Positions 33,642-46,609 of a stretch of 64,000 nt of DNA are shown here, in pieces; positions within the stretch are counted from its first letter, which is position 1; each line of letters opens with the position of its first letter. Under the pieces are notes generated by a model. It worked only from the letters and a program-made list of their open reading frames with translations, was not told where the DNA came from and ran no database searches. The translations under genes and the position numbers were made by a program. The stretch is taken from positions 3,146,325-3,210,324 of the forward strand of contig NZ_CM001440.1 in assembly GCF_000244975.1 (NCBI RefSeq), given 5' to 3'. This stretch comes from Saccharomonospora cyanea NA-134. Lineage in GTDB: Bacteria > Actinomycetota > Actinomycetes > Mycobacteriales > Pseudonocardiaceae.

Positions 33642-34313
33642 ATGACCATCAGCGTCTTTCTCGTCGACGACCACGAGATCGTTCGCCGCGGCCTCGCCGA
33701 TCTGCTGGAGAGTGAACCGGACATGCGGATCGCGGGCGAGGCGGCGTCGGTGGGCGAGGCGCTCACGCGCATCCCGGGTTCCGGTGCCGACGTCGCCGTG
33801 CTCGACGTGCGGCTGCCCGACGGCAACGGCGTGGAGCTGTGTCGGGAACTGCTGTCCGGGACAGAGGGTCTGCGGTGTCTGATGCTGACCTCGTACCACG
33901 ACGACGAGGCGTTGTTCAACGCGATCATGGCGGGGGCGTCGGGGTTCGTGCTCAAGCAGGTGCTGGGTTCCGACCTCGTCTCGGCCGTGCGCACGGTCGG
34001 CTCCGGTGGCTCGCTGCTGGACAGCAAGACGACCTCGGCGCTCATGAACCGTATCCGGAAGGAACGGGACGACGCCGATCCGGTGGCCGAGTTGTCCGAA
34101 CAGGAACGGGCGGTGTTCGAGCTGATCGGCGAGGGCCTGACCAACCGGGAGATCGCCGCGCGCCTCTTCCTGGCCGAGAAGACCGTGAAGAACTACGTCT
34201 CACGGCTGTTGGGCAAGCTCGGCATGCGGCGCCGTACCCAGGCCGCCGTGCTCGCCACCGAACTGCGCAAGCAGAACCCGGCCCGGCCGCCGAAGCACGG
34301 TCAGAGCTCCTGA
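33642..34313 (+). CDS. devR: NarL/FixJ-type response regulator, DevR/DosR-like
   Basis: A 223-residue response regulator. The receiver starts [18 protein letters not shown], phosphorylation site Asp55 is in [11 protein letters not shown], and TSY and VLKQV complete the switch. The DNA-binding end reads [20 protein letters not shown] then [18 protein letters not shown], nearly the DosR sequence. ATG 33642 gives the natural receiver start. The kinase gene lies convergently 52 bp away. Surrounding Acg, USP and Hsp20 genes with matching boxes make it the likely master regulator of this block, activated under hypoxia, NO or CO if it works as in mycobacteria. Confidence 0.92.
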
Positions 34314-34365: not shown

Positions 34366-36177
<1,812 letters not shown>

Positions 36178-36948
36178 TCAAGCCCCTGATGTGGACGGTG
36201 GTCGACCGAGCACGAGCAGCGACTGCGGGCTGCCGTCCACGCCGGTGTGGCGGACCATGCGCTGCCGGAACTCACGCATCTCGAACGGCTCCACCACCGG
36301 GTGCGCGGTGAGCCCGAACACGGTGGCCGCCAGCCAGGCACGCTGAAGTGCCACACCCGCCACGAGCTGTCCGCGCCTGCCGTCGGTCGCGGTGAGCACG
36401 AGCAGCCCCGGTTCCAGGCCGCGTTTGCGGTGCGCGGCCACGACGGCCGCGACGGGGACGACCCTGGCGTCGGCCGTCGACGCCGCGCGGACGATCGCGT
36501 CACACACGGCGGGGTCCAGTGCCGCCGGGTCGCGTGGGTCGAGCGGAGCGTGGTGCCTGCGTTGTTCGAACACCGCGCGGAACTGGCTGATGTCGACCGG
36601 CGAGGGCCGATGCCGCCGGTTCGCCACCACGGTGGCCACCAGCTCGGCCCGCTCCGGGTCGCCGAAGAACACCACCTCCGGTGCCCAGCCGAGGACCCGC
36701 ACGGCACAGACCACGACCGTCAGCGCGCAACCGCAGGCGATGACCCCGTTGCGGTTGGCCCCGGCGTGGTCCCGCAGCGGCGCGGGCAGGTTCTCCGCGA
36801 TCTCGACCCGGTGACCGTGTACGCGAACCGTCCACGGTTCGGCGAGACCACAGCGGTGGGCGTGCGTCGCGGCGCGGGAGAGCACACCCTTCTCCTGCTC
36901 GGACCACGTGTGGCCCGCGAGCGAGAGAACGGGTGGCCCGACGGTCAC
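36178..36948 (-). CDS. Acg-like nitroreductase family protein, short
   Basis: A 256-residue member of the Acg-type group, shorter than its two neighbours (327 and 337). The canonical APSxHNxQPW block is missing; RCGLAEPWTVRVHGHRVEI occupies its place. Conserved later parts are GVIACGCALTVVVCAVRVLG, NRRHRPSPVDISQF and the C-terminal GSPQSLLVLGRPP. Loss of the FMN-binding N-terminal segment suggests it does not bind flavin alone and may pair with the adjacent gene. It overlaps the upstream nitroreductase by 4 bp (GTGA). Confidence 0.8.
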   Translation of the reverse strand: MTVGPPVLSLAGHTWSEQEKGVLSRAATHAHRCGLAEPWTVRVHGHRVEIAENLPAPLRDHAGANRNGVIACGCALTVVVCAVRVLGWAPEVVFFGDPERAELVATVVANRRHRPSPVDISQFRAVFEQRRHHAPLDPRDPAALDPAVCDAIVRAASTADARVVPVAAVVAAHRKRGLEPGLLVLTATDGRRGQLVAGVALQRAWLAATVFGLTAHPVVEPFEMREFRQRMVRHTGVDGSPQSLLVLGRPPSTSGA

Positions 36949-37958
36949 GACCCTCGTGCCTCCCGTACACCGAGCAGCACGTCGTCGAGACCGCGCCGCG
37001 GAGTGGGAGTGCCCGGATGTCCGTAGCCGAGCCGCAGCGCCGCCTGCGGGTGGTGCGCCCCACCCAGCAGCGTGCGCAGTTCGGCGCGGGTGCGGGGCAC
37101 TTCGAGGGGTTGCGCGAGGAACGACGCCTGGAGGCCGGAGGCGGTGGCCGTGAGCAGCACCCTCTGGAGAGCCTGGCCGGCCCTGACCGCGTCGCGGCGC
37201 GTGTCACCCGGGGTGGTGAGCACGGCGACGAGCGGCTGCCGCTCGAACTCGCGTGCCGCCTTGTCCGTGTCCCCACCGAACGCCCCACCGAAATCGCGCA
37301 GCGCCAGGGCCGCCTCGTCCTTCCCTCGCGGCCCGCCCGCGGACAACGGCACCCCGTCGCGCCGCTCGCCGTGGTGACTCCACGCGGCCAGTTCGGTGGT
37401 GAACGCCGGGTCGTGGCGCTGCACGTGCTCGGCCCGGCGCAGCAGAGCGGCGAACGTGTCGAAGGAGGCGGGGTCGGTGAGCAGCGCCAGTCCCGCGCCC
37501 TCCTCACTCGCGGCACGCGTCAGCGCGTGCCGTACGGCCGAGGGCACCGGTGACTCCGCGAAGGGGCGGCGGTTGGTGTGCCGCGTCTCGATCACGTCGG
37601 CGAGCCGCACGTCGTCGGCGGACGGCGGCCTGCCGACGCCGGCCCGCAGCGTGGCGAGCAACTCGGGGTGCCGCCGGTCCGGCAGCACCGACACCGCGCA
37701 GGACAGGCCGCCCCGGGCGAGCGCGAGCCGGATGTTGAGCACGGCCGCGCCGCACGCCAGTACCGCCTCCCTGCCGTCGGGGTCGCACACCGCCAGCACA
37801 CGGCTCTCGTCGAGCACGACGTCGATCTCCGCGTCGCGCGTGGCGAACAGCCAGGGCTGGGTGTTGTGCGGCGAGGGCGCCCGAGTGCCCGCCCGCAGCG
37901 CCTCCGCGACGGCCTCGCCGAAGGCACCGGCCACCGTTCCGGTCTCGGTGTCGGTCAT
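36945..37958 (-). CDS. Acg-type nitroreductase family protein
   Basis: A 337-residue protein. RAPSPHNTQPWLFATRD and ACGAAVLNIRLALARGGL are the Acg-family N-terminal marks, ETRHTNRRPFAESPVP the central one, and HPQAALRLGYG the C-terminal nitroreductase-like end. It heads a minus-strand operon with the short nitroreductase and perhaps the DevS-like kinase. The divergent promoter with the USP gene at 38097 contains the two best-spaced DosR-like boxes of the region, 60-103 bp from this start. Confidence 0.88.
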   Translation of the reverse strand: MTDTETGTVAGAFGEAVAEALRAGTRAPSPHNTQPWLFATRDAEIDVVLDESRVLAVCDPDGREAVLACGAAVLNIRLALARGGLSCAVSVLPDRRHPELLATLRAGVGRPPSADDVRLADVIETRHTNRRPFAESPVPSAVRHALTRAASEEGAGLALLTDPASFDTFAALLRRAEHVQRHDPAFTTELAAWSHHGERRDGVPLSAGGPRGKDEAALALRDFGGAFGGDTDKAAREFERQPLVAVLTTPGDTRRDAVRAGQALQRVLLTATASGLQASFLAQPLEVPRTRAELRTLLGGAHHPQAALRLGYGHPGTPTPRRGLDDVLLGVREARGS

Positions 37959-38017
37959 GGCCTTGAGTGTGGTGGTCCGTGACCCGACGTGACAGCGGCG
38001 CTCGTCCTGCTCCGGCA

Positions 38018-38060: not shown

Positions 38061-38096
38061 TTCACCGCCGTTCGCCGTTGCCGCGACCCTGGAGCC

Positions 38097-38546
38097 ATGC
38101 CCGGTGACGCCCCGACCGGCGGCACGATCGTGGTCGGCATCGACGGCTCCCCCGCGTCGAGTCAGGCGCTGCGGTGGGCGTGCTTCCAAGCGGAGATCAC
38201 GGACGGGAGCGTGCTCGCGATCTCGGTCAGGGAGGAGACGGGACTGCTGCCGGGGTCGGAGTTCGCGCTGCGCCAGCGTGGCACGTGGCGCGACCACGAC
38301 GCCGTGCGGGCCGCCCTGCACCGGGACGTCAGCATGGTCACCACCTCGGCGCCCGTGCGCGAGCTGGTCGTCACGGGGGAACCCGCGGACGAGCTGCTGT
38401 CCGCGGCCAGGGAGGCCGACCTGCTGGTGCTGGGCACGCACGGGCACCGGACGCTCAGCACCGTCCCGCTGGGCGGAGTGGCGGCCGAGTGCATCCGGCG
38501 TGCGGTGTGCCCGCTGGTGCTGGTGCCCGCCGCTCCGGCCCGGTAG
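38097..38546 (+). CDS. Universal stress protein, single domain
   Basis: A 149-residue UspA-fold protein. VVGIDGSPASSQALRWACFQ starts the fold, and LGTHGHRTLSTVPLGGVAAEC is the nucleotide site, where the usual GS near the end is GG, which may weaken ATP binding. The REETGLLPGSEF insertion is shared with the USP at 14572. Start ATG 38097 has GGAG upstream. Two DosR-like boxes precede it. The longer frame upstream runs through those boxes and is rejected. Confidence 0.9.
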   Translation: MPGDAPTGGTIVVGIDGSPASSQALRWACFQAEITDGSVLAISVREETGLLPGSEFALRQRGTWRDHDAVRAALHRDVSMVTTSAPVRELVVTGEPADELLSAAREADLLVLGTHGHRTLSTVPLGGVAAECIRRAVCPLVLVPAAPAR

Positions 38547-38580: not shown

Positions 38581-38620
38581 CAGCGGTGTCGGCCGGTGTC
38601 GGCCGGTGTCAGTCGGGGTC
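38581..38620. repeat. Short 10-bp tandem repeat at the 3' end of the CBS gene
   Basis: Three to four copies of a GGCCGGTGTC-like decamer run from 38581 to 38620 (the last degenerate). The CBS-BON stop codon (38609-38611) lies inside, so the repeats form the end of that gene and its 3' flank. Likely slippage-generated. Confidence 0.6.
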
Positions 38621-39214
38621 ACGGCCGCGGTGGCGGACCGCCGCGTGGACCACGCCGGGGACCGACTCGGCGAGCACCGTCGCGACGTGGCGATCGGTGG
38701 CGTCGTCGTGGTCGTCCTCGATCGTCACCGTGCCACCGGTGACCTGGACGCTCCACCGGTCGGGACCGCCGTAGATCATCAGCCGGCGGCGTACGTCCCT
38801 GGCGATGTCGGCGTCGTCGCGCGACAACGCGCGCACGATGTCCCTGCGGGTCACGATGCCGACCAGCTTCTCCCCCGCGAGTACCGGGACCGCCCGGTGG
38901 TGTCCCTCCAGCAGTGTCCCCACCAGATCGGCCACGTCCGCGCCCTGCTGGGTGCACGTGGGTGCGGGCGTCATCACCTCACCCACCGTCCCCGCGACCG
39001 GCCCCGTGGAGGAACCGGAACGGTAGCGCGCGTCGTGCGGCACCCGGCCGGTCATGACGTCCGCTTCCGTGACGACGCCGACCACCCGGCCCGCGTCGTC
39101 GACCACGGGCAGCGCCGTGAAGCCGTGCTCGGCGAGCAGGCGCGTCGCCCGCTTCACGGAGTCGTCCGGTGAAGCGGTGACCACGGGGCTGGTCATGATG
39201 TCCTTGGCGCGCAT
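38609..39214 (-). CDS. CBS-pair and BON domain protein
   Basis: A 201-residue protein. Two CBS motifs are visible: VKRATRLLAEHGFTALPVVD with VGVVTEADVM, and VADLVGTLLEGHHRAVPVLA with VGIVTRRDIV. A BON-like end follows from about 145: RRRLMIYGGPDRWSVQVTGG and a VTIEDD strand. CBS pairs bind adenosyl nucleotides; BON suggests membrane or protein contact. Mycobacterial hypoxic response protein Hrp1 is a CBS protein of the DosR regulon. Start abuts the USP stop without gap; third gene of a USP-USP-CBS operon. Confidence 0.9.
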   Translation of the reverse strand: MRAKDIMTSPVVTASPDDSVKRATRLLAEHGFTALPVVDDAGRVVGVVTEADVMTGRVPHDARYRSGSSTGPVAGTVGEVMTPAPTCTQQGADVADLVGTLLEGHHRAVPVLAGEKLVGIVTRRDIVRALSRDDADIARDVRRRLMIYGGPDRWSVQVTGGTVTIEDDHDDATDRHVATVLAESVPGVVHAAVRHRGRDPD

Positions 39215-40096
39215 CTACTCCCCCGGTGTCGATCGGACCACGGCGATGGCGCACGGTGCGTGGACCACCAGCGCCCGGCTGGTGGAACCGAGCAACATGC
39301 CCTTGAAGCCGCTGCGGCCCCGGCTGCCCACCACGAGCAGCCGCGCGCCCTCGGCGTACTCCAACAGCGTGCGCACGGGCCGCCCCCTCACCACGACGGT
39401 CTCGACGGCGACGTCCGGGTGACTGTCCCGCAACGGCCCCACCTGCTCGGTGAGGGCGGCACGCTCTCCTGCCTCGATCTCGTGGGGGTCGACCCGGAGT
39501 GGATAGCGGGGTACGGCCTCGTCGAGGAAGATGCCGCGCCAGGTCCGCACCACCGTCAGCGGCGCACGCCGGTCGGCGGCCTCGGCGAACGCGAACCGCA
39601 ACGCCGCCGTGCTGGCCTCGGAGCCGTCCACGCCCGCCACGACCGGCGCCTCCGGCGGCAACGGCTGCTGCGGGACACGTACCACGACCACGGGCGAGTG
39701 ACCGTGAGCCGCGAGCCCCACCGCCACCGACCCGACCAGCATGCCCGTGAACCCGCCGAGGCCCCGGGAGCCGAGCACCGTCATCCGTGCCCGCCTGGAC
39801 TCCTCGACGAGCACGCTCACCGGCTCGCCCTCGGCGAGTGTGGTCTCCACGGTGACGCCGGGGGCGACCTTCCCGGCCGCCTCCCTCGCCTCGTCGAGCC
39901 ACTCCGTGCCCTGGTGCCGCATGCCCTCCCGGAGCTGGGGGAAGGTCGCGGCGGACTCCGGGTACCCGTACATCGGCACGACGTAGGCGTGAACGAACCG
40001 CAGGGTGTCACCGCGGGCGGCGGCTTCCTCGGCGGCCCAGTGGGCGGCGTCGACAGCGGACCTCGACCCGTCCACACCCACGACGATCATGCTCAT
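39215..40096 (-). CDS. Universal stress protein, tandem domain
   Basis: A 293-residue protein of two USP domains. Domain 1: VVGVDGSRSAVDAAHWAAEE and the ATP site LGSRGLGGFTGMLVGSVAVG. Domain 2: VAGVDGSEASTAALRFAFAE and VGSRGRSGFKGMLLGSTSRA. Both glycine signatures are intact, so each half should bind ATP. The architecture is that of mycobacterial Rv1996/Rv2005c-type dormancy USPs. Start overlaps the upstream USP stop by 4 bp. Confidence 0.93.
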   Translation of the reverse strand: MSMIVVGVDGSRSAVDAAHWAAEEAAARGDTLRFVHAYVVPMYGYPESAATFPQLREGMRHQGTEWLDEAREAAGKVAPGVTVETTLAEGEPVSVLVEESRRARMTVLGSRGLGGFTGMLVGSVAVGLAAHGHSPVVVVRVPQQPLPPEAPVVAGVDGSEASTAALRFAFAEAADRRAPLTVVRTWRGIFLDEAVPRYPLRVDPHEIEAGERAALTEQVGPLRDSHPDVAVETVVVRGRPVRTLLEYAEGARLLVVGSRGRSGFKGMLLGSTSRALVVHAPCAIAVVRSTPGE

Positions 40097-41028
40097 CCTG
40101 TCTTCTCCCGACGTCGACTACGGTTTGCCCGGGTCTGCGTTCCGGTCCGGCCCGGTACCACGAGCAACGGGCACGGCGCGGACCGCGCCAGCGCGTGGCT
40201 CGTCGACCCGAGCAACCGGCCGCTCAGTTCCCGGTGACCGGTGCTGCCGACGACGAGGAGCTGCGCTGGCCCGGCGTGGCGTAGCAGGGCGGGCGTCGGC
40301 CCGTCCCGTGCCACCACACGCTCGACCTCGACCTCGGGGTACCACTCCCGCATACCCGCCAGACGTTCCGCGAGCGTGATGGCCTCCGCCGTCTCGCTCT
40401 CACCCCACGGCCCACCACTCCGGTGGTGGAACAGACCGCGCCGGGATCCGCTCGCGGCGTGCACGGCGACCAGCGGCGCACCACGCAGGGCGGCCTCCTC
40501 GTACGCGACGACGACGGCCTCCGCGCTGGTGGGTGACCCGTCGACCCCCACAACGACCGGGCCGTGTCCCCGAGGGCTCTCGGTGTCGTCCCGCCAGCGC
40601 ACCACGGCGACCGGGCACGGTGCGTGACCCATGAGACTCGTGGCCACCGCGCCGAGCCTGCCACCCTGGCCCTGCACCTCGTGCCCACCGATGACCACGC
40701 AGGCCGCGTGGTGGGAACGCTCGGCCAGCGCCGACGCCGCGCTTCCCACGACCAGTTCGGTGTCGATCCGTACCGATCCGCCCTCGCTTTCGGCCACCGC
40801 CCGTGCCCGCTCCAGCCAGGTGCGGCCCTCGGCCTCCAGCTCCACGAAGTGGTCCGGACTCAGACCGATCCCCGTGCCGTACGGCGTGGGCGGGTCCATC
40901 GCGGTCACCAGCAGCAACGGTCTGTGCCGCCGGGCCGCGGTCAGCGCCGCCCACGCCGTGGCCCGCAACGCCGGTTTCGTACCGTCCACTCCCACCACGA
41001 TGCTCGCGGTGGCACCCGCGCTCGTCAT
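40093..41028 (-). CDS. Universal stress protein, tandem domain with degenerate first site
   Basis: A 311-residue two-domain USP. Domain 1 begins VVGVDGTKPALRATAWAALT, but its nucleotide site reads IGGHEVQGQGGRLGAVATSL, a loose match. Domain 2 has VVGVDGSPTSAEAVVVAYEE and an intact VGSTGHRELSGRLLGSTSHA. ATG 41028 has GGAGGGAG upstream; longer upstream frame rejected. First gene of the USP-USP-CBS operon, divergent from the GAPDH-like gene with 212 bp between them. A loose DosR-like match (GGGACAGGAGTCGA, 9 of 14) is at 41085. Confidence 0.9.
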   Translation of the reverse strand: MTSAGATASIVVGVDGTKPALRATAWAALTAARRHRPLLLVTAMDPPTPYGTGIGLSPDHFVELEAEGRTWLERARAVAESEGGSVRIDTELVVGSAASALAERSHHAACVVIGGHEVQGQGGRLGAVATSLMGHAPCPVAVVRWRDDTESPRGHGPVVVGVDGSPTSAEAVVVAYEEAALRGAPLVAVHAASGSRRGLFHHRSGGPWGESETAEAITLAERLAGMREWYPEVEVERVVARDGPTPALLRHAGPAQLLVVGSTGHRELSGRLLGSTSHALARSAPCPLLVVPGRTGTQTRANRSRRREKTG

Positions 41029-41240
41029 CCGGCAGCTCCCTCCGGCCTTCTTCCGCTGACCAGGGTGACGGCCCGGGGCATGGCGGGACAGGAGTCGAAA
41101 GCCCCTGGCCCGGCGGGGAATGGGCCGGGAAGCCACCGCCAGGGCACCGTTGGTCCTCGTCCGGTCGGGGCCGTTCGACTCTGCCCACGGGCCACCGTTC
41201 ACGGCGAGGATCAGGATGTGCCGGGGACAAGGAACTCGAC

Positions 41241-42257
41241 ATGACCCTCGTGCTGGGCATCAACGGGTTCGGTCGCGTCGGAAGGGCGTTGCTCCGCTGC
41301 GTGCTCGCCAGGCCCACCGGCGCGGAGCCGGTCGAGGTGGTGGCCGTGAACGACCCCGCCGACCTGGCCGCCCTGGCGTACCTGCTGGAGTACGACTCGA
41401 CGTACGGACGGTTGGAACATCCCGTGCACGTACGGGGACGCACCCTGTGCGTGGGATCGCACCGTGTTCACGTGACGGCGGGCGAGCGGCCCGGCGACGT
41501 GGACTGGCGGGCTTCCGGGGCCGACGTGGTCGTGGAGACCACCGGCCCCGCCTCCGCACGCCGGGACGCGAGCCTCCACCTCGACGCGGGGGCCCGCAAG
41601 GTGATCGTCGCCGCGTACCACCCCGGTGCCGACGCCACCATCGCGGTCGGTATCAACGACGACGACTACGACCCCGGCCGCCACCACGTCGTGTCGGCCG
41701 CGTCCGGCGCGGCACACTGCGTGGCGCCGATGCTGCTCGTGCTGCACCGGGCGTTCGGCGTCCGGCACGGGGTGCTGACGACCATCCACAGCTACACCAA
41801 CGACCAGTCCCTGCTGGACCAACCCCACAGCGACCTGCGCCGATCACGGTCGGCCGCCGTCAACATCGTGCCGACCTCCACGGGGGCTCCCCGTTCCCTC
41901 GGCGCGCTGCTGCCGGAGTTGGCCGGAGCCACCGAGGCGGTCGCCGTACGGGTTCCGGTGGAGGACGGGTCGCTGGCCGACCTCACCGTCGTGGTCCGCT
42001 CACCCGTCACGCCGGGTCAGGTCAACCGGGCGTTCGCCGACGCCGCGGCCGGACGGCTCCGCTCCCACCTGCACTACACCGAGACGCCGGTGGTGTCGCG
42101 GGACGTGGTGGGGTCGTCCGCGTCGTGCGTGTTCGACGCGGGGCTCACCACCACGTGTGCCGGTCTCGTGAAGGTCTTCGGCTGGTACGACAACGAGTGG
42201 GGTTACGCCAACCGCCTGCTGGACCTGGCCCGGCTCGTCAATCCGGGAGGCTCGTGA
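41241..42257 (+). CDS. GAPDH homologue lacking the catalytic cysteine
   Basis: A 338-residue protein with full GAPDH fold: GINGFGRVGRALLR (NAD site), VNDPADLAALAYLLEYDSTY, ETTGPASARRDA, TTIHSYTNDQSLLD with the catalytic His, and VFGWYDNEWGYANRLLDLA. The active-site SNASCTTNCLAP is SAASGAAHCVAP: Gly156 (codon GGC at 41706-41708) replaces the nucleophilic Cys, while the second Cys (Cys160) remains. Thioester chemistry should be impossible, unless Cys160 substitutes. Coupled (TGATG) to a site-2 protease gene. It is probably a redox sensor, NAD-binding regulator or structural relative rather than a glycolytic enzyme; this is inference. Confidence 0.92.
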   Translation: MTLVLGINGFGRVGRALLRCVLARPTGAEPVEVVAVNDPADLAALAYLLEYDSTYGRLEHPVHVRGRTLCVGSHRVHVTAGERPGDVDWRASGADVVVETTGPASARRDASLHLDAGARKVIVAAYHPGADATIAVGINDDDYDPGRHHVVSAASGAAHCVAPMLLVLHRAFGVRHGVLTTIHSYTNDQSLLDQPHSDLRRSRSAAVNIVPTSTGAPRSLGALLPELAGATEAVAVRVPVEDGSLADLTVVVRSPVTPGQVNRAFADAAAGRLRSHLHYTETPVVSRDVVGSSASCVFDAGLTTTCAGLVKVFGWYDNEWGYANRLLDLARLVNPGGS

Positions 42258-42985
42258 TGGCGTGCCGTTCTCTGGGCAGCGCCGGTGGTGTACGGCTCGA
42301 CGTGCACGCCTCCGCTGCCGTGACCGTCGTGGTGCTGACGTCCGTGCTGGCTCTCGGCCTACTGCCCGTCACCGCGCCCGCCCAACCCGCCGCGCTGTAC
42401 TGGCTGGGAGGGCTGGCCGTGGCGGTCGGGTTCTTCGCCTCCGTGGTGCTGCACGAACTCGCGCACGCGGTGACCGCTCTGCGGTACGGGGTCGCCACCC
42501 GCCGTGTGGTGCTGTGGCTGCTGGGCGGCACGGCCGAGCAGGAGACGTTCCCACCGGGTCCCCGCGCCGACGCCGTGATCGCCGTGGCGGGCCCCGTGGC
42601 CAGCGCCGGTGTGGGGCTCGCGTGCTGGGCCGTCGTGCTCGCCTTCGAGCCACTGCTGTCGGCGACGGCGCTGGCGTCGCTGCTGTGGCTCGGCCTGGCG
42701 AACCTCGCCTTCGCGGTGTTCGCCCTGTTGCCGGGAGCTCCGCTGGACGGCGGGCGCCTCGTGCGGGCCGCGGTGTGGTCGCGCACCCGCGACCGGGACC
42801 GGGCCGACCGGGTGGCACGCCGCTGCGGGCGCGTGCTCGGCGGGGTGCTCATGGCGTGCGGCGCGGCAGCGGTGGTCCTCTTCGGACAGTTCGTCGCGAT
42901 CTGGGGCGCCGTCGCGGGCTGGGTCCTGCTCAGCACCAGGACGGTGGAGGCCACCGCGGCCGGCGCGGACACCGTCACCCCGTAG
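42257..42985 (+). CDS. Site-2 protease family (M50) membrane metalloprotease
   Basis: A 242-residue integral membrane protease. HELAH in SVVLHELAHAVTALRYGV gives the zinc-binding His-Glu-x-x-His, and ALLPGAPLDGGRLVRA supplies the third ligand Asp. About five to six helices; no PDZ or CBS domain. The ATG at 42257 shares a base with the GAPDH-like stop and has GGGAGG upstream. Such short S2Ps cleave membrane-bound anti-sigma or regulator proteins. The substrate is not visible locally. Similar S2P genes accompany mycobacterial dormancy loci (Rv2625c), supporting membership in this regulon. Confidence 0.9.
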   Translation: MACRSLGSAGGVRLDVHASAAVTVVVLTSVLALGLLPVTAPAQPAALYWLGGLAVAVGFFASVVLHELAHAVTALRYGVATRRVVLWLLGGTAEQETFPPGPRADAVIAVAGPVASAGVGLACWAVVLAFEPLLSATALASLLWLGLANLAFAVFALLPGAPLDGGRLVRAAVWSRTRDRDRADRVARRCGRVLGGVLMACGAAAVVLFGQFVAIWGAVAGWVLLSTRTVEATAAGADTVTP

Positions 42986-43080: not shown

Positions 43081-43995
43081 ATGACCAGTCCCCACAGCGA
43101 CAACGCACCGATCGTGGTCGGCGTCGACGACACGGAGGCCGCCATGCGGGCCGTCCGATGGGCGTCCCTGACCGCGAAGAAGCACCGTGTACCGCTGCAC
43201 CTCGTGCACGCCTCCGGGTTCAACGACCCCTACCTCATCGGTTTCACCGTGCCCCCGCCCGAGGCGTTCAAGGAGGAACTCCAGGAGCGAAAACGGCAGG
43301 CGTTGCGCACCGCGGAGGAGATCGCCACGGAGGTGGGCGCTCCGTCGGTGGAGGCGCGTTTCGAGACCGACGCGGCGATCCCCTTCCTGCTGCACGCCTC
43401 CCACACGGCCCGGATGGTGGTGGTCGGTTCGTCCGGGCGGACGGGGCTCGCGGGGCTGATGGTCGGCTCGACCACGTTGGCACTGGTCTCCCACGCCCGT
43501 TCGCCCGTGGTCTCGGTGCGCCAGGACTACCCCGACGCCGTGGCCGACGACGCCCGCCCGATCGTGGTCGGTGTGGACGGCAGCGAACTGAGCGTGCGAG
43601 CGGTCGGCCACGCGTTCGCGGAGGCCTCGTCCCGGGGCGTCGATCTGATCGCCGTGCACACCTGGAGCGACACCACCACGACGCTGCTGGAGGAACGGCG
43701 CATGTTCGAGAACTGGGAGCCCATCCACGACTACGAGGCGCAGGTGCTCGCCGAACGCCTCGCGGGCTGGCAGGAGGAGTACCCGGACGTGCGGGTGGAG
43801 CGGAAGGTCGTGAAGGACCGGCCGCGGCACGAACTGCTGGAACACAGCAGGTCGGCGCAGTTGGTGGTGGTGGGCAGCCGGGGGCGCGGCGGGTTCCGCG
43901 GGATGTTGCTGGGCTCCACCAGCCAGGCGCTCATCCACCACGCGTCCTGCCCGGTCATGGTCGTACGCCCGGAGAAACACCAGGGCCGGAGCTGA
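43081..43995 (+). CDS. Universal stress protein, tandem domain
   Basis: A 304-residue two-domain USP. Domain 1: VVGVDDTEAAMRAVRWASLT and ATP site VGSSGRTGLAGLMVGSTTLA; domain 2: VVGVDGSELSVRAVGHAFAE and VGSRGRGGFRGMLLGSTSQA. Both sites intact. GGGAGG precedes ATG 43081. Its stop directly abuts the stop of the convergent DUF3048 gene, with no space for a terminator. Confidence 0.93.
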   Translation: MTSPHSDNAPIVVGVDDTEAAMRAVRWASLTAKKHRVPLHLVHASGFNDPYLIGFTVPPPEAFKEELQERKRQALRTAEEIATEVGAPSVEARFETDAAIPFLLHASHTARMVVVGSSGRTGLAGLMVGSTTLALVSHARSPVVSVRQDYPDAVADDARPIVVGVDGSELSVRAVGHAFAEASSRGVDLIAVHTWSDTTTTLLEERRMFENWEPIHDYEAQVLAERLAGWQEEYPDVRVERKVVKDRPRHELLEHSRSAQLVVVGSRGRGGFRGMLLGSTSQALIHHASCPVMVVRPEKHQGRS

Positions 43996-46088: not shown

Positions 46089-46102
46089 GGGACTTAGGTC
46101 CC
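46089..46102. promoter_or_regulatory. DosR-type box, 13 of 14 positions
   Basis: GGGACTTAGGTCCC matches GGGACTWWAGTCCC at 13 positions and is nearly symmetric. It is the strongest such site in the window, located between the alcohol dehydrogenase (64 bp) and Hsp20 (82 bp) start codons, both plausible hypoxia-response genes. Confidence 0.85.
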
Positions 46103-46183: not shown

Positions 46184-46609
46184 ATGAGCCAACCCGAACG
46201 CTCCCACGGACGCCCCCTGATTCCCGACTTCCGCGATCTGCTCGAGATGCTGCCCACGATGAGCGGGCTGCGCCCGGCCCTGGACCTGCACAGCATCCGC
46301 ATCGAGGACCGCATCGAGAACGACGCCTACGTGCTGCGCGCCGAACTGCCGGGGATCGATGTGGACAGCGACCTCAACATCACCGTCCACAACGGCCTGC
46401 TGACCATCGAGGCGCAACGCACGGAGGAACAGTCGGAAAGCGGCCGGTCCGAGTTCCGCTACGGCTCGTTCGCACGCACGGTGGCGCTACCGACCGGAGC
46501 GAAGGAGGACGCCATCGACGCCTCCTACGACAACGGCATCCTCACCATCCGCGTGGAACTGAGCAAACCGGAGGAGGGCAGGCGGCAGATCCGCGTGCGA
46601 CACGACTGA
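46184..46609 (+). CDS. Hsp20/alpha-crystallin family chaperone
   Basis: A 141-residue small heat-shock protein. The alpha-crystallin domain (about 38-130) has RIENDAYVLRAELPGIDVDS, ITVHNGLLTIEAQR, RSEFRYGSFARTVALP and the terminal DNGILTIRVELSKPEE. It matches the HspX/Acr type, holdase chaperones that are highly induced in mycobacterial dormancy. The N-terminal FRDLLEMLP helix is present. Regulated most likely through the DosR-type box 82 bp upstream. Confidence 0.93.
   Translation: MSQPERSHGRPLIPDFRDLLEMLPTMSGLRPALDLHSIRIEDRIENDAYVLRAELPGIDVDSDLNITVHNGLLTIEAQRTEEQSESGRSEFRYGSFARTVALPTGAKEDAIDASYDNGILTIRVELSKPEEGRRQIRVRHD

Follow-up and report, generated by a model that had tools for sequence, protein, structure and literature searches.

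A GAPDH paralogue with glycine at the catalytic cysteine position in a dormancy-type island of Saccharomonospora cyanea

The GAPDH copy and its genomic surroundings

Members of the genus Saccharomonospora are soil bacteria. The window considered here, i.e. the whole stretch of DNA that was analysed (64,000 nucleotides), belongs to the genome of S. cyanea (5,408,301 bp, one contig) and includes a group of stress-related genes that could be assigned as follows:

33642..34313, plus strand: NarL/LuxR-type response regulator with DevR/OsdR-like architecture
34366..36120, minus strand: GAF-GAF-HisKA_3 sensor kinase with DevS/OsdK-like architecture
36178..36948, minus strand: second, divergent Acg-like protein, below the family cut-off
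36945..38000 (start approximate), minus strand: Acg-family nitroreductase (NF047509, 334.8 bits against a cut-off of 199)
38091..38546 (start approximate), plus strand: single-domain universal stress protein (USP)
38609..39214, minus strand: CBS-domain protein
39215..40096, minus strand: two-domain USP
40093..41025 (start approximate), minus strand: divergent two-domain USP
41241..42257, plus strand: Cys-less type I GAPDH paralogue of 338 aa (translation, family and domain scans, PDB alignment)
42257..42985, plus strand: peptidase M50, site-2-protease-like, the ATG of which overlaps the GAPDH stop codon (TGATG)
43129..43995 (start approximate), plus strand: two-domain USP
46184..46609, plus strand: Hsp20

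The island also holds a DUF3048 gene and a zinc alcohol dehydrogenase gene, and its USPs total five. It displayed the DosR/OsdR-type gene set, that is a response regulator and a GAF kinase near USP, Acg and Hsp20 genes, and the preliminary description of this locus, which had placed the GAPDH gene inside a dormancy-type block, was thereby borne out. A response regulator and a GAF kinase beside several USP genes, Acg nitroreductases and Hsp20 are likewise encountered in the DevR/DosR regulon of Mycobacterium tuberculosis and the OsdR regulon of Streptomyces coelicolor (PMC5069765); the terms 'glyceraldehyde' and 'gap' are absent from the main text of the OsdR paper. The Acg-like protein at 36178-36948 reached 93.9 bits against the cut-off of 199 and was without Pfam match; it is perhaps another degenerate partner protein.

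According to best tblastn hits, which were the only measure of orthology for island genes, four other core genomes (L123, L124, L126 and L127) shared the order of 14 genes, and a fifth (L125), from which several genes were missing, shared part of it. S. marina-type genomes (L128, L129) kept it with insertions, within the bounds of the fetched stretch. The 20-kb regions surrounding Cys-bearing homologues from other genera (L130-L142) displayed a USP or Acg match in 10 of 13 cases and at least one island-protein match, sometimes a weak one, in 12 of 13, none being found in L137. The overlap between GAPDH stop and M50 start was observed in four of the six core genomes (S. cyanea, G001, G008 and G011), and an ATG was located within two bases after the GAPDH stop in G010, G006, G342 and G343. 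This overlap suggests that the two genes are translationally coupled.

ORF 41241-42257 (plus strand) translated into MTLVLGINGFGRVGR...HHVVSAASGAAHCVAP...TTIHSYTNDQ...WYDNEWGYA. The protein matched both Pfam domains Gp_dh_N (PF00044) and Gp_dh_C (PF02800) and scored 339.2 bits with NCBIfam model TIGR01534 (GAPDH-I), below the cut-off of 367.2. Its identity to the top-ranked solved GAPDHs was 46-47 %. The structure model displayed a confident GAPDH fold (pLDDT 89.3), and the ten top-ranked Foldseek matches were all chains of Corynebacterium glutamicum GAPDH (TM 0.90, rmsd 3.8-4.0). A housekeeping-type GAPDH with an intact S-N-A-S-C-T-T-N-C block, 48 % identical to the window copy, is encoded elsewhere in the genome. 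Residues are numbered here as in the window protein and their roles (contact with NAD, phosphate or substrate) are those seen in GAPDH structures. The following sites were located by alignment, the last three also by translation:

41262..41285, plus strand: NAD adenosine/pyrophosphate motif NGFGRVGR, residues 8-15
41706..41708, plus strand: Gly156 at the catalytic Cys position, codon GGC
41718..41720, plus strand: Cys160, second Cys of the CxxxC motif and non-catalytic, codon TGC
41787..41789, plus strand: His183, equivalent of the catalytic His

The active-site block reads S-A-A-S-G-A-A-H-C, and in the best PDB relatives the catalytic Cys occupies the position aligned with Gly156. Translation and PDB alignment thus confirmed the replacement of the catalytic Cys by Gly156, with Cys160 and His183 where they had been placed; the catalytic Cys of the S-x-x-S-C-T-T-N-C block was absent from the window copy and from all clade copies read. 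The idea of an enzyme using Cys160, also put forward in the preliminary description, found no support. An equivalent of this residue, four positions further along the helix, was present in 183 of 186 GAPDH loci, Gly copies included (this set counts some genomes twice, being drawn from two collections). As it is kept in nearly every GAPDH examined, Cys160 is no adaptation of the Gly copy, and its use as a replacement nucleophile was unsupported.

Distribution and origin of the glycine

The first homology search, restricted to the best 120 of 8000 proteins above threshold, yielded 111 proteins with Cys at position 156, eight with Gly and one with Ser (P0091). Together with a second, profile-based search, likewise limited to 120 proteins, the 146 distinct proteins listed comprised 137 Cys, eight Gly and one Ser. 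Gly was displayed by all eight protein clusters of the Saccharomonospora clade (P0001-P0008), of which P0001 is the window protein and P0002, P0005 and P0006 carry Saccharomonospora names; the species named among Gly proteins were S. azurea, S. piscinae and S. marina. P0091, an environmental homologue whose active-site block has Ser for the catalytic Cys (S-A-G-S-S-T-T-N-C), formed a long branch within the same subfamily.

Loci were drawn from 390 family genomes (among the matches listed) and from further locus fetches, and at least 107 of them were read at position 156 (98 Cys, nine Gly). With 18 housekeeping-type or distant loci set aside, together with L189 and L202-L204 (beside the housekeeping type in the tree) and L206-L208 (outside the tree), 82 loci remained, 73 with Cys and nine with Gly. 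Eight of these nine represented all the genome loci of the Saccharomonospora clade (L081, L083-L087, L099 and L100), while the ninth, L113 (identical to locus L205), came from the fragmented, Amycolatopsis-type genome G186. A sequencing or assembly error at Gly156 would require a single change (TGC to GGC), but Gly occupied the position in 8/8 clade loci, encoded by three different codons (GGC, GGA and GGT), and in 8/8 protein clusters, which excludes a base-call error; a single such error had already been judged unlikely from the window alone. A plasmid search gave no match at 60 % identity or above.

In a tree of 112 rows, 11 of the 12 Gly rows, all from Saccharomonospora, formed one clade (support 100/99), in which the eight Gly proteins were placed either directly or through matching genome loci. 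The Cys-bearing loci L101 and L102 adjoined it in a group of 13 rows (support 100/100); their active-site strings were SGASCTTNC and SAASCTTNC, respectively, the former being shared by Prauserella muralis P0009. Near relatives with Cys, named in the preliminary description as grounds for refutation, were encountered only outside the clade: all Saccharomonospora copies read displayed Gly, and the sisters just outside displayed Cys. Since the Gly clade is nested beside these Cys-bearing sisters, tree and loci place the replacement of the Cys on the stem lineage of Saccharomonospora sensu lato, S. marina included. A recent loss private to the S. cyanea strain was ruled out by the same clade.

The remaining Gly row, from G186, paired with the Cys-bearing Amycolatopsis cynarae P0036 (support 100/100), for which reason we take it as a separate Cys-to-Gly change. 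A single origin of Gly for all 12 rows is formally possible; in the tree group test, applied to grouped rows only, the starred branches force one change and 8 % of 200 bootstrap trees have one. The G186 copy may be a broken gene, because it occupies the beginning (L205 1-2350) of a 4.3-kb contig and its 3' side is abutted by an ORF that appeared transposase-like when its translation was judged by eye.

The GAPDH gene was absent from six of the 12 genus genomes. Five of these six were 82-91 % complete drafts in which a close M50 or USP neighbour was likewise missing, so the GAPDH gene was seen to be lost on its own in a single case, G002 (99 % complete). Here the gene was cut in frame to a 38-codon remnant (L221 12991-13107) still ending in TGATG before the M50 gene. 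All 13 other island genes searched for were kept in G002 (75-91 % identical), the flanking USP and M50 being 77-80 % identical to those of the window, and the GAPDH gene is consequently dispensable in this genome.

The S. marina-type genomes G342 and G343 displayed a third, distant GAPDH (L147, L148) on a very long branch, with 43 % identity to the window copy; the Cys of L147 was intact.

Pocket residues and selection

Residues N8, G9, F10, G11, R12, G14, R15, N37 and D38, which we take to constitute the adenosine side of the NAD site, were invariant in all 11 Saccharomonospora Gly rows, the NGFGRVGR motif varying at residue 13 only (Ile, Val or Leu). Residue 83, which also belongs to the NAD set, was changed in all 11. 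His183 and Arg237 were kept in all Gly rows, in agreement with the catalytic His reported initially. Other residues of the pocket followed two patterns. The three S. marina-type rows kept all the catalytic and phosphate-site residues examined other than the Cys, and their S-loop was kept apart from changes at 197 and 184, the one at 184 (Ser to Gly) being also found in some Cys-type copies. These copies are the strongest evidence that a protein without catalytic Cys has been maintained for something. The nicotinamide/phosphate pocket of the core rows displayed Ala for F104 and T158, Tyr or Phe for P126 and His, Gln or Leu for N159, with variable changes at G102 (altered in four of the six rows and retained in S. 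cyanea) and T157. Since S. cyanea itself displayed Ala at 104, 157 and 158 and Tyr at 126, the preliminary statement that the NAD site is kept holds for the adenosine-side motif and not for the nicotinamide side. Over all Gly copies, position 157 was occupied by A, T or V and position 159 by H, Q, L or N.

Most of the S-loop persisted in core and S. marina-type copies; it was lost in G011/P0008, where the P0008 model displayed pLDDT values below 50. Change was graded. Cys-type copies conserved 133 columns to at least 90 %, and of these 127-129 were retained by the Cys-bearing sisters, 121-122 by the S. marina-type copies, 104-112 by the six core rows and 90-93 by G011/P0008. Pocket loss in the core species and S-loop loss in G011/P0008 look like decay, and retention of the NAD motif, taken alone, could reflect folding needs.

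No stop was found inside the GAPDH frame in any of the eight clade loci. The codon-model omegas, which are rough because dS is saturated in the core species, were 0.075 for the Gly copies of the six core species (0.057 with G011 left out) and 0.073 across the eight loci together, compared with 0.028 for the housekeeping GAPDH in the six core genomes, 0.026, 0.045 and 0.057 for three sets of Cys-type paralogues, and 0.048-0.092 for the neighbours (HK, USP1-3, M50, DUF3048 and Hsp20). The Acg1, Acg2, CBS and ADH sets were left out, as their best hits in G010, where these genes are not in place, are maybe not orthologues. Fixing omega at 1 for the six core species worsened the fit by 439 log units, and the core tree of Gly copies amounted to ~4 substitutions per codon.

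Because synonymous sites were saturated in the core species, the S. marina-type pair G342-G343 offered a cleaner test. Its NG86 omega was 0.094 for the Gly copy and 0.090 for the housekeeping copy, against 0.059-0.221 for ten neighbouring genes (with only 85 codons in the HK comparison); eight pairs of Cys-type copies ranged from 0.047 to 0.220. The LWL85 values were 0.086 (Gly copy) versus 0.123 (housekeeping) and the YN00 values 0.029 versus 0.014, or 0.032 versus 0.021 in a repeat run, with 12 versus seven amino-acid differences. For 16 saturated, GC-rich pairs, YN00 returned a paralogue value in two, namely G342-G343 and G000-G011 (0.091 for the Gly copy of the latter). Mean identity across the six core species was 0.747 for the Gly copy versus 0.943 for the housekeeping GAPDH. 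The Gly copies are under purifying selection with their frames intact; their faster evolution, relative to the housekeeping GAPDH, and the loss of the gene in G002 count against a binding pseudoenzyme.

Possible role and regulation of the Cys-less copy

An essential catalytic residue has been lost in a retained fold, and the gene is open and constrained across species, though lost in G002; these are the marks of a pseudoenzyme. The closest described case is TbGAPDHL (Tb927.9.9820), a flagellar GAPDH-like protein of trypanosomatids (PMC4106842). It is likewise a GAPDH paralogue in which the catalytic Cys was replaced (by Pro, Gly being found here) and flanking residues were lost, while the GINGFG region of the adenosine site was conserved; it evolves faster than true GAPDH, and the free-living relative Bodo saltans still displays the Cys. 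A retained ligand-binding site was raised as a possibility by its authors (PMC4106842). As TbGAPDHL shows the same pattern, the kind of protein is already known. TbGAPDHL differs in being eukaryotic, flagellar and outside a stress operon, whereas in one bacterial species pair strong selection preserves the other residues of the catalytic and phosphate sites.

Type I phosphorylating GAPDHs (TIGR01534; C. glutamicum 8HRO, Geobacillus stearothermophilus 1GD1) share the fold, the two Pfam domains, the NAD motif and the catalytic His with the window copy, which differs from them by the absent catalytic Cys, the sub-cut-off score and several replaced pocket residues. The Cys-bearing second GAPDHs of Amycolatopsis, Prauserella, Kribbella and Streptomyces belong to the same subfamily as the window copy; those of Pseudonocardiaceae had a USP or Acg gene within 20 kb in the 10 of 13 regions mentioned above. 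They retain the active-site Cys and are presumably active. The PDB matches included Cys149Ala and Cys149Ser mutants, solved with NAD+ according to their titles (1NPT, 1NQ5), so that loss of the Cys is by itself no bar to NAD binding; these Cys-less sites were engineered, whereas that of the window copy is natural. Searches of the open-access literature by term found no example of a bacterial GAPDH pseudoenzyme, and a case from a bacterium, set in a dormancy island and accompanied by a series of intermediates, appears to be new among the open-access papers searched.

We favour, with a probability of about one half, the reading of the Saccharomonospora copy as a binding-type, non-catalytic GAPDH pseudoenzyme of the dormancy-type island. 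At the base of Saccharomonospora, as tree and loci show, the nucleophilic Cys disappeared from a second, Cys-bearing GAPDH that in Pseudonocardiaceae is located mostly in dormancy-type islands. Without this Cys, the thiohemiacetal and thioacyl-enzyme steps would be impossible, and judging from established GAPDH chemistry and from Cys mutants (Cys-to-Ala abolishes the activity of bacterial GAPDH; PMC4106842) the Gly copy should not make 1,3-bisphosphoglycerate, as these steps need the Cys. The gene would have been retained since the protein still acts by binding: the adenosine half of the NAD site persists in every clade copy, as do catalytic and phosphate-site residues other than the Cys in the S. 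marina-type copies, and the protein probably works by binding something rather than by the usual catalysis. We think of it as a binder responsive to NAD(H) or adenine nucleotides that would be produced, along with the neighbouring stress proteins and the coupled M50 protease, in hypoxia or stasis. Remodelling of the nicotinamide end in the core species suggests that the ligand there is no longer hydride-transferring NAD.

NAD(H) or redox sensing by the Gly copy is possible. Its elaboration into a dedicated non-catalytic sensor, the old cofactor site of which would read NAD(H) or adenine nucleotide and signal either to the housekeeping GAPDH or to the intramembrane protease of the M50 family with which it would be co-translated, seems rather doubtful to us; if true, it would link redox or energy status to dormancy.

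The main rival to the binding-type pseudoenzyme is slow non-functionalisation, which we consider a serious possibility short of probable. The copy, redundant with the housekeeping GAPDH, would have decayed stepwise after losing its Cys, with constraint limited to soluble folding or to coupling with the M50 gene, and would end in deletion as in G002. The graded loss over the conserved columns, from S. marina-type through core copies to G011/P0008, fits such a course, as do the in-frame remnant of G002 (38 aa, TGATG before M50), the G186 copy with a transposase-like ORF against its 3' end and the absence of the gene from half of the genus genomes. It is opposed by the S. marina-type pair, in which the NG86 omega hardly differs from the housekeeping value and falls inside the span of the neighbours (YN00 being less favourable), and in which, as in the third row of this type, catalytic and phosphate-site residues other than the Cys are untouched. 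Eight frames free of stops despite the ~4 substitutions per codon of the core tree also argue against decay, and so does the fact that five of the six gene-less genomes were without close M50 or USP as well, leaving one case in which the GAPDH gene alone was lost.

Presence of both GAPDH copies in one genome and the S-loop mostly retained in core and S. marina-type copies would also suit a regulatory subunit, forming mixed tetramers with the housekeeping GAPDH and lowering or tuning glycolytic flux, or shielding it from thiol oxidation, in dormancy. In Corynebacterium diphtheriae GAPDH, S-mycothiolation and overoxidation are known to affect the active-site Cys (PMC5504048), and a Cys-less chain would escape them. 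We nevertheless regard this role as unlikely given an identity to the housekeeping copy of only 48 % and the S-loop gone in G011/P0008; the structure model was that of a monomer. Less likely still is a neofunctionalised enzyme, which would convert a different aldehyde or phosphorylated substrate by chemistry that needs no catalytic Cys, His183 serving as base, or by means of Cys160. Conservation of His183 and Arg237 in all Gly rows is compatible with it, and F104, P126 and T158 changed together in core rows as if the pocket had been reshaped. However, the pocket varies among Gly copies at 157 and 159, unlike a new active site, and Cys160, found in almost every GAPDH locus and replaced by Ser in Staphylococcus aureus GAPDH (PMC5504048, where the CxxxC motif is discussed), marks no new role.

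GAPDH has many side functions in many organisms. These are hard to separate from catalysis, and a natural, conserved and apparently catalytically incapable GAPDH isolates a non-catalytic one. The clade provides a ready-made series for this purpose: Cys-bearing sisters, copies that are Cys-less and otherwise intact, remodelled copies, copies lacking a proper S-loop and a gene lost naturally in frame. On the binding-type reading, the dormancy response of actinobacteria would include a glycolytic scaffold.

One conserved footprint was found in the divergent USP/GAPDH promoter:

41090..41106, minus strand: AGGGGCTTTCGACTCCT, candidate DosR/OsdR-like operator

The corresponding stretch upstream of the GAPDH gene, CAGGRGTCGAAAGCCCC, was the same in six of seven aligned species, with two differing positions in G010, and its surroundings had diverged. 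It resembles only loosely the OsdR consensus AGGGCCGATCGGCCCT (PMC5069765), so that regulation of the GAPDH gene through this candidate operator is a conjecture. A perfect version of GGGACNNNNGTCCC, which we take to be the DosR palindrome motif, was absent from the GAPDH promoter. When one mismatch was allowed, this motif had seven sites in the window versus 11.0 expected by chance. Its sole exact match in the window was the perfect palindrome GGGACTTAGGTCCC at 46089-46102, between the divergent alcohol dehydrogenase and Hsp20 genes, which is a possible DosR-like operator.
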